Origin: Allofustis seminis DSM 15817
GTDB lineage: Bacteria; Bacillota; Bacilli; Lactobacillales; Carnobacteriaceae_A
Length of the DNA stretch: 36,284 bases
Direction: 5' to 3'
Assembly: GCF_000374325.1 (NCBI RefSeq)
Contig: NZ_KB894088.1
Coordinates: 1-36,284, forward strand
Shown in pieces: positions 2,663 through 8,042 of this stretch. Under the pieces are notes generated by a model. That model saw nothing but the letters and a program-made list of their open reading frames with translations, was not told the origin of the DNA and did not search any database. The position numbers and the translations under genes are program-made. Every line of letters begins with the position of its first letter. Position 1 is the stretch's first letter.

Positions 2663-4273
2663 GTGGGAGCGCCGGATCGAAAACGGGACCGCTTTGCAGA
2701 AATTGTAAAAGTGCTCGGCTCTTATGGTTTTGGGCATCTTTACCGAACCCGTCTATTAAATAAAGATGAAGCAAAAGATGCGAAACGTTTGCGCCTAGCT
2801 TTTGAAGAGCTAGGCCCTACGTTTATTAAATTCGGCCAAATTCTGTCAACCCGTCATGATCTGTTGCCAAAACAATACATTGATGAATTGAGTAAGTTGC
2901 GCGATCGCGTGCCACAATTCCCATTTGCGGAGGCCGTGCGTATCTTTAATGAAGATTTTCAAATTTCGCTGGACGAAGTGTTTGAATGGGTGGAAGAAGA
3001 GCCACTAGCAAGTGCATCAATTGCACAAGTTCACCGTGCAACATTGAAAAATGGCGATAAAGTGATTCTTAAGGTGCAACGTCCCGATATGGGCGAGTAT
3101 TTATTACGCGATATTCAGCTTTTTGCAGAGGTGCTGGAGATGGTTCCAGGATTAATTCAAGACGTTGTAATTGATGCTCGAACTGCTATTTTGGAAATTG
3201 AGGCAACAACCCGTCGTGAACTTGATTTTCGCTTGGAAGCAGCAGCGATTGAAAAATTTCGCGAAAATAATAAATATCGAGCAGTAGTCGATGCTCCTAA
3301 GACCTATCCAGAATACACTTCTGCACGCATTTTAGTGGAGGAATATATCGAAGGAATTCATAATATGGATGTCCGCCAGCTGAAAGAAAAAGGCTATGAT
3401 TTAGAAGATATCAGCCGCAAGTTGACCTATGTTTATTTATTGAATGTATTTGAGGATGGACTTTTTCATGCAGATCCACATCCAGGAAATTTAATTATTC
3501 GTGAGGGTAAGATTTATTTTATTGATTTTGGCATCTATGGAGAGATTTCAACGCAAAATCGCCAAGATTTATTTGATATTTTGCGGGCAGTCGTATTAGA
3601 AGATGTCGATCAGATGATGACAAAAATTTTACAAATGGCAATCATCCGAAAAAAAGTGGATCGGCTTCAATTGTATGAAGATATTCAGAACTTTTTCTAT
3701 ATGTATGCCAATATGAATCTCGATAAGATAGAAATTTCGGAGTTATTTTCGGAAGTGCTCAACATTTCGCGCAAACATGGTTTGGGTATGCCAAATGATT
3801 TTGTACTTCTTGCGAAATCGCTAACGGTCATTGAAGGGGTCGTTACGAATTTAAATGGCGAAATTTCTGTTATGGAAATTGCTCGCATGATTGTAAAAAA
3901 TCAGTTGAATTGGAAAGAAATGTTGGCAGTATCTTCTTCTCTGGACCAACTCACATTGAAGACAGCTCAGATAGCGCAGCATGCTTTTGAGTTACCCCAT
4001 CAATTATCAAAAGCATTGCAGACCGTTACGGAGGGGCGTTTTAAACTCCATTTTGAATTTTCTGATTATGAAAAGAAAGAACGTGCCGTCAACCAAATGG
4101 TCAATCGTATAGTTTTTGCGATTATTATTGCATCGCTTATTCTAGCTTCAGCAGTGATCGTTGTTTTTACTTCTGGGACTAATTGGTCAACAATTAGTAT
4201 GTTCTTATTTATTGGAGCTGGATTTATGGGGTTGTGGTTATTGTGGTCGATATTTAAATCAGGAATGCTTTAA
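2663..4273 (+). CDS. ABC1/UbiB (AarF) family kinase-like protein
   Basis: A 536-residue atypical kinase-like protein of the UbiB/ADCK family. It has the family-specific KxGQ motif (KFGQ, residues 56-59), an Ala-rich nucleotide loop (ASASIAQVH, 117-124), a VLK-type lysine (Lys137), a catalytic-loop motif HADPHPGN (269-276) and IDFG (287-290). Two C-terminal membrane helices at about 483-502 and 512-531 anchor it, as in bacterial UbiB. Start is GTG at 2663 with a GAGGTG ribosome site 8 bases upstream. In proteobacteria UbiB supports ubiquinone synthesis or lipid handling. Firmicutes do not make ubiquinone, so the substrate here is unknown, perhaps an isoprenoid or other lipid. It follows the phasin-like gene in one operon and ends at a bidirectional terminator. 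Confidence 0.92.
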   Translation: MGAPDRKRDRFAEIVKVLGSYGFGHLYRTRLLNKDEAKDAKRLRLAFEELGPTFIKFGQILSTRHDLLPKQYIDELSKLRDRVPQFPFAEAVRIFNEDFQISLDEVFEWVEEEPLASASIAQVHRATLKNGDKVILKVQRPDMGEYLLRDIQLFAEVLEMVPGLIQDVVIDARTAILEIEATTRRELDFRLEAAAIEKFRENNKYRAVVDAPKTYPEYTSARILVEEYIEGIHNMDVRQLKEKGYDLEDISRKLTYVYLLNVFEDGLFHADPHPGNLIIREGKIYFIDFGIYGEISTQNRQDLFDILRAVVLEDVDQMMTKILQMAIIRKKVDRLQLYEDIQNFFYMYANMNLDKIEISELFSEVLNISRKHGLGMPNDFVLLAKSLTVIEGVVTNLNGEISVMEIARMIVKNQLNWKEMLAVSSSLDQLTLKTAQIAQHAFELPHQLSKALQTVTEGRFKLHFEFSDYEKKERAVNQMVNRIVFAIIIASLILASAVIVVFTSGTNWSTISMFLFIGAGFMGLWLLWSIFKSGML

Positions 4274-4283
4274 AAGCATAATA

Positions 4284-4322
4284 AAAAAGCTTTCGCAAGA
4301 ATTTCTTGCGAAGGCTTTTTAT
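4284..4322 (+). terminator. Bidirectional terminator
   Basis: The stem pairs AAAAAAGC(T)TTCGCAAGA with TCTTGCGAA(G)GCTTTTT around a 3-base loop. It serves the ABC1 kinase gene on the plus strand. The complement of its T tract also supplies the TAA stop codon of the convergent minus-strand gene. Confidence 0.88.
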
Positions 4323-4822
4323 TTTCGAAGCGATATTGGTTTATCAAGCAACTCTTTCAAAACAACCATGTGCGCAACAGACTCTGCTTTTCCTAACGAT
4401 TTAATCAGTGCTGATCGCTTCTTATTTGATGAAGCATGCTGACAATTCTTCATTGCAGGTGTCCGCTTAATGGGTGTGGCAACTTTTTTATTGTCTATTT
4501 GTTGCATTTTTTCATCATATGCAGCACTTACTGTTGGTGCAGGATGTCGTTTTTTATTTCTTTTCTTTTTTTGTCTTCGTTTGCGTGCTTGATGAGTGAC
4601 TTGTTGTTCTTTATTTTTTAAATGGGTTGCGGCAGTAGATTCACTAGAATGGACGAGAGCATCGGGATATGCTTTTTTCGATGGTCGTTTTTTTGCTGCT
4701 TTGCGCTGTGTTCTGTAGATAGCATCGCGTACTTTTTTGATTAAGAATATCAAGATAATAAGCGGTGCAATAAATACAATGAATATCCCGAGCAAGCCAA
4801 GCATGAACGATGGCAGTATCAT
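4319..4822 (-). CDS. Uncharacterised Lys/Arg-rich membrane protein coupled to floA
   Basis: I do not recognise this 167-residue protein. It begins with a hydrophobic helix (about residues 3-28, LGLLGIFIVFIAPLIILIFL) and continues as a very basic, low-complexity cytoplasmic region with clusters such as KKRPSKK and KRRQKKKRNKKRH, ending in a more ordinary segment (ALIKSLGKAESVAHMVVLKELL). Its ATG overlaps the floA stop codon by one base (TAATG), so translation is almost certainly coupled to floA. B. subtilis also has a small gene, yqfB, after floA, but I see no sequence reason to call this its homologue. A role as a membrane-anchored partner of the flotillin scaffold is an inference from position only. 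The basic tail could contact acidic lipids or RNA. Confidence 0.7.
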   Translation of the reverse strand: MILPSFMLGLLGIFIVFIAPLIILIFLIKKVRDAIYRTQRKAAKKRPSKKAYPDALVHSSESTAATHLKNKEQQVTHQARKRRQKKKRNKKRHPAPTVSAAYDEKMQQIDNKKVATPIKRTPAMKNCQHASSNKKRSALIKSLGKAESVAHMVVLKELLDKPISLRK

Positions 4823-5838
4823 TATTGATGATCCGTTTCAGTTGCAGAGGATTCGTCTTTTATTTCGCGCGACACAGCTTCACGCATGACAGTATCTGCT
4901 TGTACATTTTTTAATTGATAATAATCCATGACGCCCAGATTACCACTGCGAAGTGCTTCGGCCATTGCTAGCGGGATTTGTGCTTCTGCTTCAATAACTT
5001 TTGCTCGCTGTTCTTGAACGGAGGCAATCATCTCTTGTTCTTTTGCAATCGCCATAGATCGACGTTCTTCCGCTTTAGCTTGGGCGATTTTTTTGTCTGC
5101 TTCAGATTGTTCAGTTTGTAATTTTGCGCCAATGTTGCGACCGACATCTACATCGGCAATATCAATCGAAAGAATTTCAAAGGCAGTTCCAGAATCCAGC
5201 CCTTTATTTAAAACTGTTTGAGAGATAAGGTCCGGATTTTCGAGCACTTCAGTATGTCTTTTTGAGGAGCCAACGGTGGTTACAATGCCTTCACCAACAC
5301 GTGCAATAATCGTATCTTCTCCCGCTCCACCAACAAGACGTTCGATATTAGCGCGTACTGTTACTTTAGCGCGTGCGATAATTTCAATCCCATCATTTGA
5401 AACAGCTGAAATATTCGGCGTTTCGATTACTTTAGGGTTAACGGATACTTGGACTGCTTCAAAAACATTACGTCCTGCTAAGTCGATGGCACATGCCTGT
5501 TCAAAAGTTAGTAAAATATTAGCACGTTCGCTGGCGATCAATGCATCGACCACGTCATTAATATTTCCACCTGCTAAGTGGTGTGCTTCTAGACTATTAA
5601 CATCAATATCCAGACCAGCTTTCGTTGCTTTGATGAGTGGGCGGATAATTGAATTTGGATTAACGCGGCGTAAACGCATTCCCACCAATGTAAACAATCC
5701 GATTTTAACACCCGAAAAATAAGCAGTAATCCATAATCCTACCGGGATAAATCGGAAGAAAATAGATAATCCTGCAACAATGAGAACAACTATAATAATG
5801 AAGCCAGATAGTTCAGCATTTAGTAAAAGATCAAACAT
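4822..5838 (-). CDS. floA: Flotillin-like protein FloA
   Basis: A 338-residue scaffold protein of functional membrane microdomains, close to B. subtilis FloA (YqfA, about 331 residues). A short N-terminal hydrophobic hairpin ([25 protein letters not shown]) is followed by the SPFH/PHB domain with family blocks such as [41 protein letters not shown] and [18 protein letters not shown] long Ala/Glu-rich coiled coil follows (about residues 240-300, many EAKA/EAQ repeats), then a conserved end block ([21 protein letters not shown]). The ribosome site is AAAGGAAG. It is preceded by the nfeD-like gene, the same pairing as yqeZ-floA in B. subtilis, and is followed with a one-base overlap by a basic membrane protein. 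Confidence 0.95.
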
Positions 5839-5871
5839 AAATATTATCTTCCTTTCTTTTTATTTCTTTTC

Positions 5872-6486
5872 TTAAGAGATTTTTCGAACAACAATTTTTG
5901 AACCGATAATTTGCTGGATTTCAACGCGAACCCCTTGATTTAAATGCTCTCCTGCCGTTATTACATCAATCACAGTTTGCGATGATAGTCGCACTTTTCC
6001 AGCAGGGCGAAGTGGTGTCGTTGTAATACCCGTCATCCCAATATGTGGAGTAGGTTTGACTTTTGCATCATGTGGCATCTCTTCTTTGGGCGTAAAGCTT
6101 GTTGATTTTAAAATGATTTTATTTGCATTTTTAGAGATATAGCCACTTTTGAACAATGCGAGAAAGAAGATAGCACTCATAATTAACGCTAAAATTAAAT
6201 CAATTGCTGCTTGTACAGCATCGCCAGTTGTTTGGATTAATCCCCAATATAAGGATGCACCCCCTAAGATACCGATCAAGCCAAAACTTGGTATAAAAAT
6301 TTCGAGCAATAATAAGATTAAGCCAATGGTAACGCCAACTACAGCTGGCCATGCGATTCCATTAGGTGAAAGATAGAAATAACCGACCAGTGCACTAATG
6401 GCTAATCCTATACCAGTTTTTGAAAAGGAGGTGAAGACTCCTACGAGAATAAAAATTAAACTCAGCGCCAACAAAATAAATTCCAT
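5872..6486 (-). CDS. NfeD-like membrane protein (short form, no protease domain)
   Basis: A 204-residue protein with about four to five N-terminal membrane helices (ILLALSLIFILVGVF, GIGLAISALVGYFYL, AVVGVTIGLILLLLEIF, LGGASLYWGLI, IDLILALIMSAIFFLALF) and a C-terminal OB-fold NfeD domain of about 70 residues containing GMTGITTTPLRPAGKV and a VEIQQIIGSKIVVRKI end. The long NfeD of B. subtilis (YqeZ) carries an N-terminal ClpP-like serine protease domain; it is absent here, so this resembles the short NfeD1b type. I chose the ATG at 6486, not the GTG at 6492, because the AAAGGAGG ribosome site is 7 bases from it. It lies immediately upstream of floA, its usual partner, and 49 bases after uppP with no terminator. 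Confidence 0.9.
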   Translation of the reverse strand: MEFILLALSLIFILVGVFTSFSKTGIGLAISALVGYFYLSPNGIAWPAVVGVTIGLILLLLEIFIPSFGLIGILGGASLYWGLIQTTGDAVQAAIDLILALIMSAIFFLALFKSGYISKNANKIILKSTSFTPKEEMPHDAKVKPTPHIGMTGITTTPLRPAGKVRLSSQTVIDVITAGEHLNQGVRVEIQQIIGSKIVVRKIS

Positions 6487-6535
6487 CACCACTCCTCCTT
6501 TAAAGACCTCATATAGCTGCTAGGCATCAAGTAAT

Positions 6536-7363
6536 TTAAGCAGCAATGAAGCCAAAGTATAAAATAACTAAAAGACCGACGACAATGCGATACCACCCAA
6601 AAGCACTGAAATCATTTTGTTTAATATAGTGCATTAAGAACTTAATCGCCCAAATAGAAACTAGGAAACTTACGACACATCCGACCAGCAAAATAATCAA
6701 TTCAGATGTTGTAAATGCGAGTCCAAAGCCAATAAGTTTTAAAAGGCTAGCCCCTAACATGACTGGAATGGACATAAAAAAGGAAAATTCTGCCGCAAGT
6801 GGACGAGCGGTACCAATGGAGATGGCGCCGATGATGGTAGAGCCGCTACGACTAGTGCCTGGAATTAGGGCAAGCACTTGAAAAAGTCCGATCATAAAGG
6901 CACGTGGATAACTAACATCGTGCCAATTGAGGGCATTTTGCTTTTTATTTTTGTTTCGATATTCAATCAAAATGAATAAGACACCATAGACAATAAGCGC
7001 AATGGCAACGGTCTGCCAATTGAAAAAGCGCTCTTGGATGATGTCTTCGAATAAGACACCAACAACGCCCGCAGGAATAACACCAACGAGAACTTTTGCC
7101 CAAATTGAAAAAACTTCTTTGCGCTCTTTAGTTGTCGGTTGGGTAAATGGATTTAACTTTTGAAAATAAAGTAAAATCACCGCTAAAACAGAGGCGAGTT
7201 GAATGACTACGAAAAACATTTCTTTAAATTGTGGCGAAGCATCTAGCACTAAGAATTCATCAACTAAAAGCATGTGTCCCGTACTACTAATGGGCAGCCA
7301 TTCGGTAATTCCTTGAACAATTCCTAATATAATAGCTTTAATAATTTCTACTAAAAAGTTCAC
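6536..7363 (-). CDS. uppP: Undecaprenyl-diphosphatase UppP (BacA)
   Basis: A 275-residue integral membrane enzyme that removes a phosphate from undecaprenyl diphosphate, regenerating the lipid carrier for peptidoglycan and wall polymers. Loss or excess changes bacitracin sensitivity in other bacteria. Both family signatures are intact: [17 protein letters not shown] (residues 14-30, with Glu17-equivalent and Glu21) and PGTSRSGST (168-176, Arg172). About eight hydrophobic helices are visible. The start is GTG, set by an AAGGAG ribosome site 6 bases upstream. It is the first gene of a likely four-gene minus-strand operon with nfeD-like, floA and the basic membrane protein, linking carrier recycling with membrane-domain organisation. 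Confidence 0.95.
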
Positions 7364-7395
7364 AAAAATCTCCTTCTTACTTATAAGTTTCTATC

Positions 7396-7424
7396 ATTAT
7401 AAAGTAATTTGTGTCAAAATGCCA
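7396..7424 (-). promoter_or_regulatory. Probable promoter of uppP operon
   Basis: On the minus strand a consensus -10 TATAAT (7396-7401) lies 17 bases after a weak -35 TGGCAT (7419-7424). A TTGACA at 7412-7417 is only 10 bases from this -10, so it cannot pair with it. The assignment is tentative. Confidence 0.45.
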
Positions 7425-7541
7425 TGAAGCGGTCATTATCTCTATGTAAAAGTTTCGTTAATGCCAAGAATTAGTGAGAAAAACTGCACGTTTATGTCTA
7501 CTTTGTGGTACTCTTAAGATATGAAATTTAGGAGGAAAGAC

Positions 7542-8042
7542 ATGGCATTTGAACAAAAACAATTAGCAAAACAATCACAAAACAAAGTATTTTGGACGAT
7601 CTTCAAATATTATGCAGTCGTCATCCCGATGATTTATCTACTTTTTCTTATGCCCAGTACAGTAACTTTTACTGCCAGTGGACCGATGATTGCTCCTTCA
7701 GAAACATTTAATTTGATGAAACAACTGCTTCTGCTAGGGATTGCTGGAATCGTGCGTGTTATTGATCCAAAAGCTAAGGCGAAAAATAAAGCGGGGGATC
7801 ATTTTATGAAAATGATTATGGCCCAACAGCTACTAGCAAACAATCTTTTTGAAATCCTACTTGTAGTGCTAGCGTGGAATGAATTCCCGCGAGTGTTGGA
7901 TGAAGCGCAGTTGACGGAGCAAGAACTTAAGCAGTGGCATTTTAAAAATAAGACCATTTATATTTTACTCGGCATAGTCATTGTTCTAACTTTATGTGTT
8001 GCATTTGTCCAGTGGAAATATGGTAAGGCTATGGGGATGTAG
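7542..8042 (+). CDS. Uncharacterised three-helix membrane protein
   Basis: A 166-residue protein that I do not recognise. Hydrophobic segments are at about residues 24-38 (YAVVIPMIYLLFLMP), around 60-75 (LLLLGIAGIVRVI), around 98-110 (NNLFEILLVVLAW) and 140-160 (IYILLGIVIVLTLCVAFV). Between them are a stretch with Lys/Asp (DPKAKAKNKAGDHF) and an acidic loop (PRVLDEAQLTEQELKQW). The strong TTAGGAGGAAAG ribosome site fixes the ATG at 7542 rather than the in-frame ATG at 7521, which lies upstream of it. It diverges from uppP and precedes pepC, which has its own promoter. No conserved catalytic motif is visible and function is unknown. Confidence 0.7.
   Translation: MAFEQKQLAKQSQNKVFWTIFKYYAVVIPMIYLLFLMPSTVTFTASGPMIAPSETFNLMKQLLLLGIAGIVRVIDPKAKAKNKAGDHFMKMIMAQQLLANNLFEILLVVLAWNEFPRVLDEAQLTEQELKQWHFKNKTIYILLGIVIVLTLCVAFVQWKYGKAMGM

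Follow-up and report, generated by a model that had tools for sequence, protein, structure and literature searches.

A gene with a conserved C-terminal motif follows floA across the Bacillota and probably encodes an overlooked partner of FloA

The nfeD-floA operon of Allofustis seminis

The window, meaning here the whole analyzed stretch of 36,284 nucleotides from Allofustis seminis DSM 15817 (contig NZ_KB894088.1), contains an operon that consists of a short nfeD, floA, and a third gene (Table 1). The TAA of floA and the ATG of the third open reading frame (ORF) share a single base at position 4822, so that the junction on the minus strand reads CATCAATAATGA. The middle of the third protein is rich in Lys and Arg, and the plus strand over the same interval is interrupted by stop codons. 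An earlier note on this DNA had described the product as a protein with a single N-terminal membrane helix and a long basic tail whose gene overlaps floA in a TAATG, which is accurate for the window ORF. Terminator-like sites of the kind listed in Table 1 number 6 in the interval 4200-7700, against 3.3 expected. On the plus strand, positions 2302-2628 encode a small phasin-like protein, with weak Pfam and NCBIfam matches below the cut-off, and an ABC1/UbiB-type kinase gene (2663-4273) directly follows this ORF; the pair is convergent with the floA operon.

Table 1. Features of the floA operon in the window
Feature	Coordinates	Strand	Description
Intrinsic terminator-like hairpin	4292..4312	minus	3' of the third-gene ORF; consensus match only
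floA third gene	4319..4822	minus	167 aa; ATG start codon at 4822, stop codon included; last of the three genes nfeD, floA, and this one
Conserved C-terminal motif VAHMVVLKELLDKPISLR	4325..4378	minus	Residues 149-166; predicted short helix, then xxPxxxR; profiles A1 and A4, residue counts
Low-complexity basic linker	4379..4735	minus	Residues 30-148; sequence, length, and charge all unconserved
N-terminal membrane helix	4736..4813	minus	Residues ~4-29, then KK; predicted N-out/C-in from flanking charge
floA	4822..5838	minus	Flotillin-like protein FloA, 338 aa; PF12127 E 1.3e-160, NCBIfam equivalog over cut-off
Short NfeD	5872..6492	minus	Membrane domain and C-terminal partner-binding domain; no protease domain among Pfam matches

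Comparison with known families

The earlier note recognized no family for this protein, and database searches lead to the same result: all 12 Pfam and 6 NCBIfam rows obtained with the window protein are below the curated cut-offs, and none of the homologues that were compared with Pfam (seven) or NCBIfam (six) has a match above them. The sub-cut-off matches, which include SelS, OAD_gamma, and oadG_fam, among others, were read as reflecting the membrane helix or the lysine-rich composition. Nine loci matched in the whole-protein search of 41 relatives described below (L004, L008, L009, L010, L012, L014, L015, L016, and L018) contain no floA and look like composition matches. A whole-protein scan of genome contigs found no relative, because the linker is too variable. 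A whole-protein search of 41 relatives yielded floA-adjacent matches in eight other genomes, and the trait that these proteins have in common is their last residues. In Listeria innocua and Paenibacillus cellulosilyticus, the third gene is annotated as “hypothetical protein.”

The conserved C-terminal motif

The conserved part of the third protein consists of its last ~18 residues, whereas the linker and the helix vary. In the order to which the window belongs, nearly all ORFs located 3' of floA have similar ends (e.g., LKQAIIYKEILDKPLSLRE), with middles that cannot be aligned. Residue statistics were collected from 260 distinct proteins, which represent 271 accepted locus rows, some of them brought in by the tail search itself. 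Of the 276 de-duplicated rows, 262 passed the profile and 14 did not; 9 of these 14 were accepted by eye, 3 have less than 400 nt downstream (L185, L309, and L261), and 2 represent one and the same locus (G007). In this set, the Pro of the motif is found in 255 proteins, the Glu in 232, and an Ile, Val, Leu, or Met after the Glu in 258. Between the end of the motif and the C terminus there is a median of 5 residues in the homologues and 1 residue in the window protein; the exception is L174, which has ~40 residues beyond the motif and in which the motif was anchored wrongly in these statistics. In some clades the tail is far diverged, as in LILAHVLPRPDF.

Two profiles were derived from these tails. 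A1 is a 24-position profile built solely from the window's own order and searched through whole genomes, and A4 is a broader profile built from floA-adjacent tails across the phylum. The window protein matches A1 with an E value of 3.1e-7 and A4 with 4.4e-5, its own sequence being one of the 31 rows of the former and one of the 82 rows of the latter. In one family of the order (f7), the third proteins are nearly identical to that of Listeria innocua; the GTDB Lactobacillales includes the Listeriaceae.

The remaining parts of the protein are far less constant. The homologues range from 59 to 299 aa, with a median of 165 aa. By a hydropathy cut, 236 of the 260 have the membrane helix, and 216 of these 236 carry a positive flank C-terminal to it. 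The helix is thus usual but not required: L205 (73 aa) and L315 of Laceyella sacchari (59 aa) have kept the motif without it. The net charge of the linker is positive in 152 homologues, negative in 99, and neutral in 9. The Lys/Arg bias emphasized in the earlier note is therefore present in the middle of the window protein but is not a conserved feature of the family, in which it is the C-terminal end that is conserved; likewise, the suggestion of a lipid-binding adaptor acting through the basic tail is unsupported as a common function, because neither the charge nor the length of the linker is conserved. The gene overlap, which had been taken as tight coupling that would fix the ratio of the product to FloA, is real in the window and recurs in only 47 of the 260 homologues, although the third gene starts before +70 nt from the floA stop in 249 of them, overlaps included. 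In three genomes of genus g37 (L086, L100, and L123), it starts 123 to 631 nt past the floA stop.

In 31 non-overlapping pairs of close relatives, dN/dS is 0.033 for floA, 0.20 for the first 35 residues of the third protein, 0.27 for its linker, and 0.08 for the motif. Selection thus acts on the protein encoded by the third gene, and within it the tail, which is subject to strong purifying selection, is constrained the most. Since a similar gene follows floA in the order and in the phylum, as detailed below, and given the dN/dS values of these 31 pairs, the third ORF is confirmed as a real gene rather than a chance reading frame.

Association with floA in the order and in the phylum

Profile A1 is blind to lineages outside the order from which it was built, and its matches there therefore provide a non-circular test of the link to floA. 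Among the 30 loci listed for A1, one is that of the window; the other 29 are all from outside the order, and every one of them has floA upstream (29/29). Within the order (198 genomes), FloA is found in 91 genomes, an A1 tail (E <= 0.1) in 92, and both in 88. In 86 of these 88 genomes, the tail and FloA are adjacent and on one strand, and in the other two (G087 and G097) they are on different contigs. Four genomes of the order have a weak A1 tail match (E values of 7.5e-4 to 0.08) and no FloA, and three have FloA and no A1 match: in G091 floA is broken, and G093 and G190 have a diverged tail by eye.

The same picture holds for the phylum (299 genomes), where FloA is found in 205 genomes, the A1 tail in 152, and both in 149. 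Among the listed A1 tail matches that have a listed floA position, 112 of 116 adjoin floA; the four non-adjacent ones are three weak matches and a second copy in G283. With A4 at E <= 1e-3, a tail is detected in 160 of the 299 genomes, all of which are among the 205 with FloA, and in 0 of the 94 FloA-less genomes, ten of which have weak matches (E values of 0.014 to 0.08).

The frequency of the gene was counted solely in loci that had been included because of their FloA, with those from the tail search left aside. By this count, the third gene is present in 258 of 266 loci, with 27 of the 258 tails accepted by eye. These comprise 240 of 246 FloA-selected loci (237 distinct tails, nine of the tails by eye), which include 80 named ones from Bacillus, Paenibacillus, Sporosarcina, Desulfosporosinus, Acetivibrio, and others, and 18 of 20 further FloA loci in which A4 failed or was weak and where a diverged tail in the same place and layout was accepted by eye. 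The latter 20 are from 15 genomes without an A4 match and 5 with weak A4 matches. Altogether, 26 FloA genomes lack an A4 match: in addition to these 15, they include G280, which is too short, G375, which was accepted by eye, and nine that are outside the count. Of the eight loci without the gene, six have too little DNA (L085, L185, L261, and L309 among the 246, and L339 and L348 among the 20), one has a frameshifted gene (L041), and one has a broken floA and no gene (L104). The floA of L261 is 79% identical to a Bacillota floA and is located on a contig labelled as a Desulfovibrio metagenome-assembled genome, which is possibly mis-binned.

The third gene is thus an unexpectedly strict companion of FloA through the Bacillota, and this association of genes is well supported. 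It agrees with the suggestion of the earlier note that the protein could be a flotillin partner, and the association extends far beyond what had been supposed; the accompanying epithet “lineage-specific” has to be dropped, since the gene is phylum-wide, though absent beside two floA genes of Bacteroidota. The profile search that the note had proposed places the homologues next to floA, not equally often elsewhere, with no match to a known unrelated family.

What the motif may bind

The best explanation, to which we assign a probability of roughly 60%, is that the third protein is a dedicated, mostly membrane-tethered partner of FloA, with a putative docking on FloA through its C-terminal motif. 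The other candidate in the operon is NfeD: the motif could dock on the C-terminal partner-binding domain of NfeD and not on FloA, so that the third protein would be an NfeD partner that stands behind floA by chance. NfeD precedes floA in annotated loci and was found in all 24 genomes that were searched for it (24 at E <= 0.001, 23 of them over the cut-off), with no NfeD-less operon among them, and because of this constant presence genetics cannot separate FloA from NfeD as the partner. However, the third gene adjoins floA and not nfeD. Further, the NfeD of Listeria innocua is only 99 aa long and yet the motif is unchanged there, so any site would have to sit in that small protein. Finally, two loci of Bacteroidota, in records labelled as plasmids of Bacteroides finegoldii and Parabacteroides distasonis, retain NfeD and FloA, and neither record contains the third gene or a match to the tail; their floA is followed by a nucleoside phosphorylase gene, at 157 nt in B. 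finegoldii and at 90 nt in P. distasonis. Docking on NfeD therefore appears unlikely. The same two loci indicate that FloA can occur without the third gene, which is either an addition in Bacillota or a loss in Bacteroidota. The Thermus SPFH5 operon, which is described as containing a gene of unknown function (PMC2636767), may be another non-Bacillota case.

A shared regulation of otherwise independent proteins would be another source of linkage. In Bacillus subtilis, yqeZ-yqfA-yqfB is described as a SigW operon and listed under sublancin resistance (PMC3498285, PMC8144471), and the third protein might act independently within that response to stress, for example by protecting the membrane against peptides, being merely co-regulated with FloA and binding an unrelated partner through its motif. 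Co-regulation can produce operon linkage, and in two genomes the tail has been kept beside an interrupted floA: in G147 (L075), floA contains an in-frame TAA and is followed by an intact third gene that includes the motif, and in G450 the floA match is split and the tail is retained. Given these two cases, either co-loss is not strict or the breaks are recent or sequencing errors. On the other hand, 258 of 266 FloA loci show the linkage, none of the loci that have an intact floA and enough DNA is a clear exception, and no strong tail match was obtained in the 94 FloA-less genomes. An association of this kind is stronger than co-regulation usually gives, and we consider this explanation distinctly doubtful.

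The other irregular loci are of several kinds. In G091 (L104), floA has several frameshifts or stops, the third gene is absent, and no tail is found in the genome; a long frame downstream of the broken floA reads openly. In G007 (L041/L121), a frameshift, which is either a sequencing error or a real break, parts the membrane-helix half of the third gene from its motif half. G283 carries two copies of floA, on different contigs (L155 and L335), and a separate third gene accompanies each copy; blastn detects no DNA similarity between the two loci, and the contamination rating of this genome is 5%. In G389, FloA is matched twice and the tail once. An apparent tandem floA in L266 is an artifact, as nfeD and floA share one frame there.

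FtsH is present in nearly all bacteria. A role of the motif as a cleavage or recognition site of a membrane protease, either the ClpP-like domain of long NfeD or FtsH, is highly improbable: the motif forms a short hydrophobic helix close to the free end, a ClpP protease motif occurs in NfeD of the YqeZ type, and members of other SPFH families are reported to bind FtsH (PMC2636767), but the motif is kept where NfeD is short, both in the window, with no protease match, and in L. innocua, and the tail is tied to FloA, as seen from the FloA-less genomes.

A candidate docking site on FloA

If the motif docks on FloA, the site might lie in the region around residues 66-70. In a covariation scan of FloA against the motif, based on 258 rows with a Pro at motif column 13 (second copies of some loci included), FloA residue 66 is part of the second-ranked single pair and comes first when the strong pairs are summed; the top single pair is FloA residue 322 with motif column 5. 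In the window's own order, all 71 D-motifs are accompanied by Arg, Lys, or Gln at FloA position 66, and outside it Arg or Lys is found with 3 of 16, one of these being the second copy of the window locus. This covariation is suggestive and confounded, as it largely tracks the division between this order and all other lineages.

The second lead comes from the Bacteroidota loci. Twelve sites that are conserved in >93% of 223 Bacillota FloA sequences are changed in both Bacteroidota proteins, and seven of them fall within residues 56-116 (L56, P67, K70, I101, A102, R105, and C116 in the window numbering), with K70 replaced by Glu in both. The binomial probability of this clustering is 0.002, a value obtained from just two sequences, which are related to each other, and from a region selected post hoc. 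Two weak leads appear to converge on the region around residues 66-70, which may serve as a lead for mutagenesis rather than as evidence of contact.

In the AlphaFold2 model of L205, the motif is a short helix, with pLDDT blocks of 82, 89, and 82 for the third protein alone. In an artificial read-through chain of FloA and the third protein, the motif has pLDDT values of 89 and 82; as the confidence is the same as for the third protein alone, the chain lends no support to docking. Searches of solved structures found no match to the motif profile (E <= 1) or to the FloA profile (E <= 0.01).

Relation to YqfB and other operon partners of SPFH proteins

The window gene occupies the yqfB position by synteny, the third place in the SigW operon yqeZ-yqfA(floA)-yqfB. 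The operon of B. subtilis is given as yqeZ-yqfA-yqfB-yqfC-yqfD (PMC3498285), and the gene order in P. cellulosilyticus is nfeD, floA, third gene, yqfC, yqfD, phoH; a named Bacillus (L262) carries a member of the family at the yqfB place. From this synteny and these relatives we infer homology to YqfB of B. subtilis 168. In the literature passages that mention it, YqfB appears as one gene of an operon; they do not present it as a family that spans the phylum and is marked by its tail. According to a 2024 paper (PMC11222466), flotillin genes are second in the operon, after nfeD, and another paper states that its operon figure leaves out further genes (PMC2636767). No description of the third-gene family or of its tail was found in the passages of open-licence literature that were consulted.

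Like the third protein, NfeD is a flotillin operon partner and a membrane protein with a cytoplasmic part. Unlike it, NfeD has a folded C-terminal domain and is described as accompanying several SPFH subfamilies (PMC2636767), whereas the third protein is predicted, in the one model (L205), to consist of helices only and is found with FloA only. Another resemblance is to YdjG and YdjH of the B. subtilis psp operon, operon-encoded membrane proteins that are reported to recruit the SPFH protein YdjI to the membrane (PMC8581546); in that case, however, the partner is a different SPFH protein, and FloA itself is membrane anchored.

A putative third component of the NfeD-FloA complex

Because floA is followed by such a gene across the Firmicutes, the third protein is probably an overlooked partner of the membrane-organizing FloA; the family may have escaped notice because only ~18 of its residues are conserved. 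In the mechanism that we propose, it would be the third component of the Bacillota NfeD-FloA membrane complex. Its N-terminal helix would anchor it in the membrane with the C terminus in the cytoplasm, the disordered linker would serve as a flexible spacer, and the motif, which is predicted to form a short helix and ends in xxPxxx(R/K), would dock at a conserved site of the FloA assembly. The candidate site is a FloA-specific helical region that precedes the SPFH fold, at approximately FloA residues 66-70 (R-P-L-I-K). Such a tethered partner would provide FloA with a means of limiting, positioning, or loading its scaffold.

A more elaborate version of this scheme, offered tentatively and at slightly less than even odds, is that the Bacillota FloA system has three parts, NfeD, FloA, and a fast-evolving tether, in which the motif clips into FloA around residues 66-70 and 101-105 and the linker adapts each species' scaffold to its own membrane or clients.

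Bacterial flotillins have been studied as raft markers and scaffolds. The third gene could supply a part that FloA reconstitutions and floA phenotypes have been missing, and its motif offers a short peptide for mapping a binding site on FloA.
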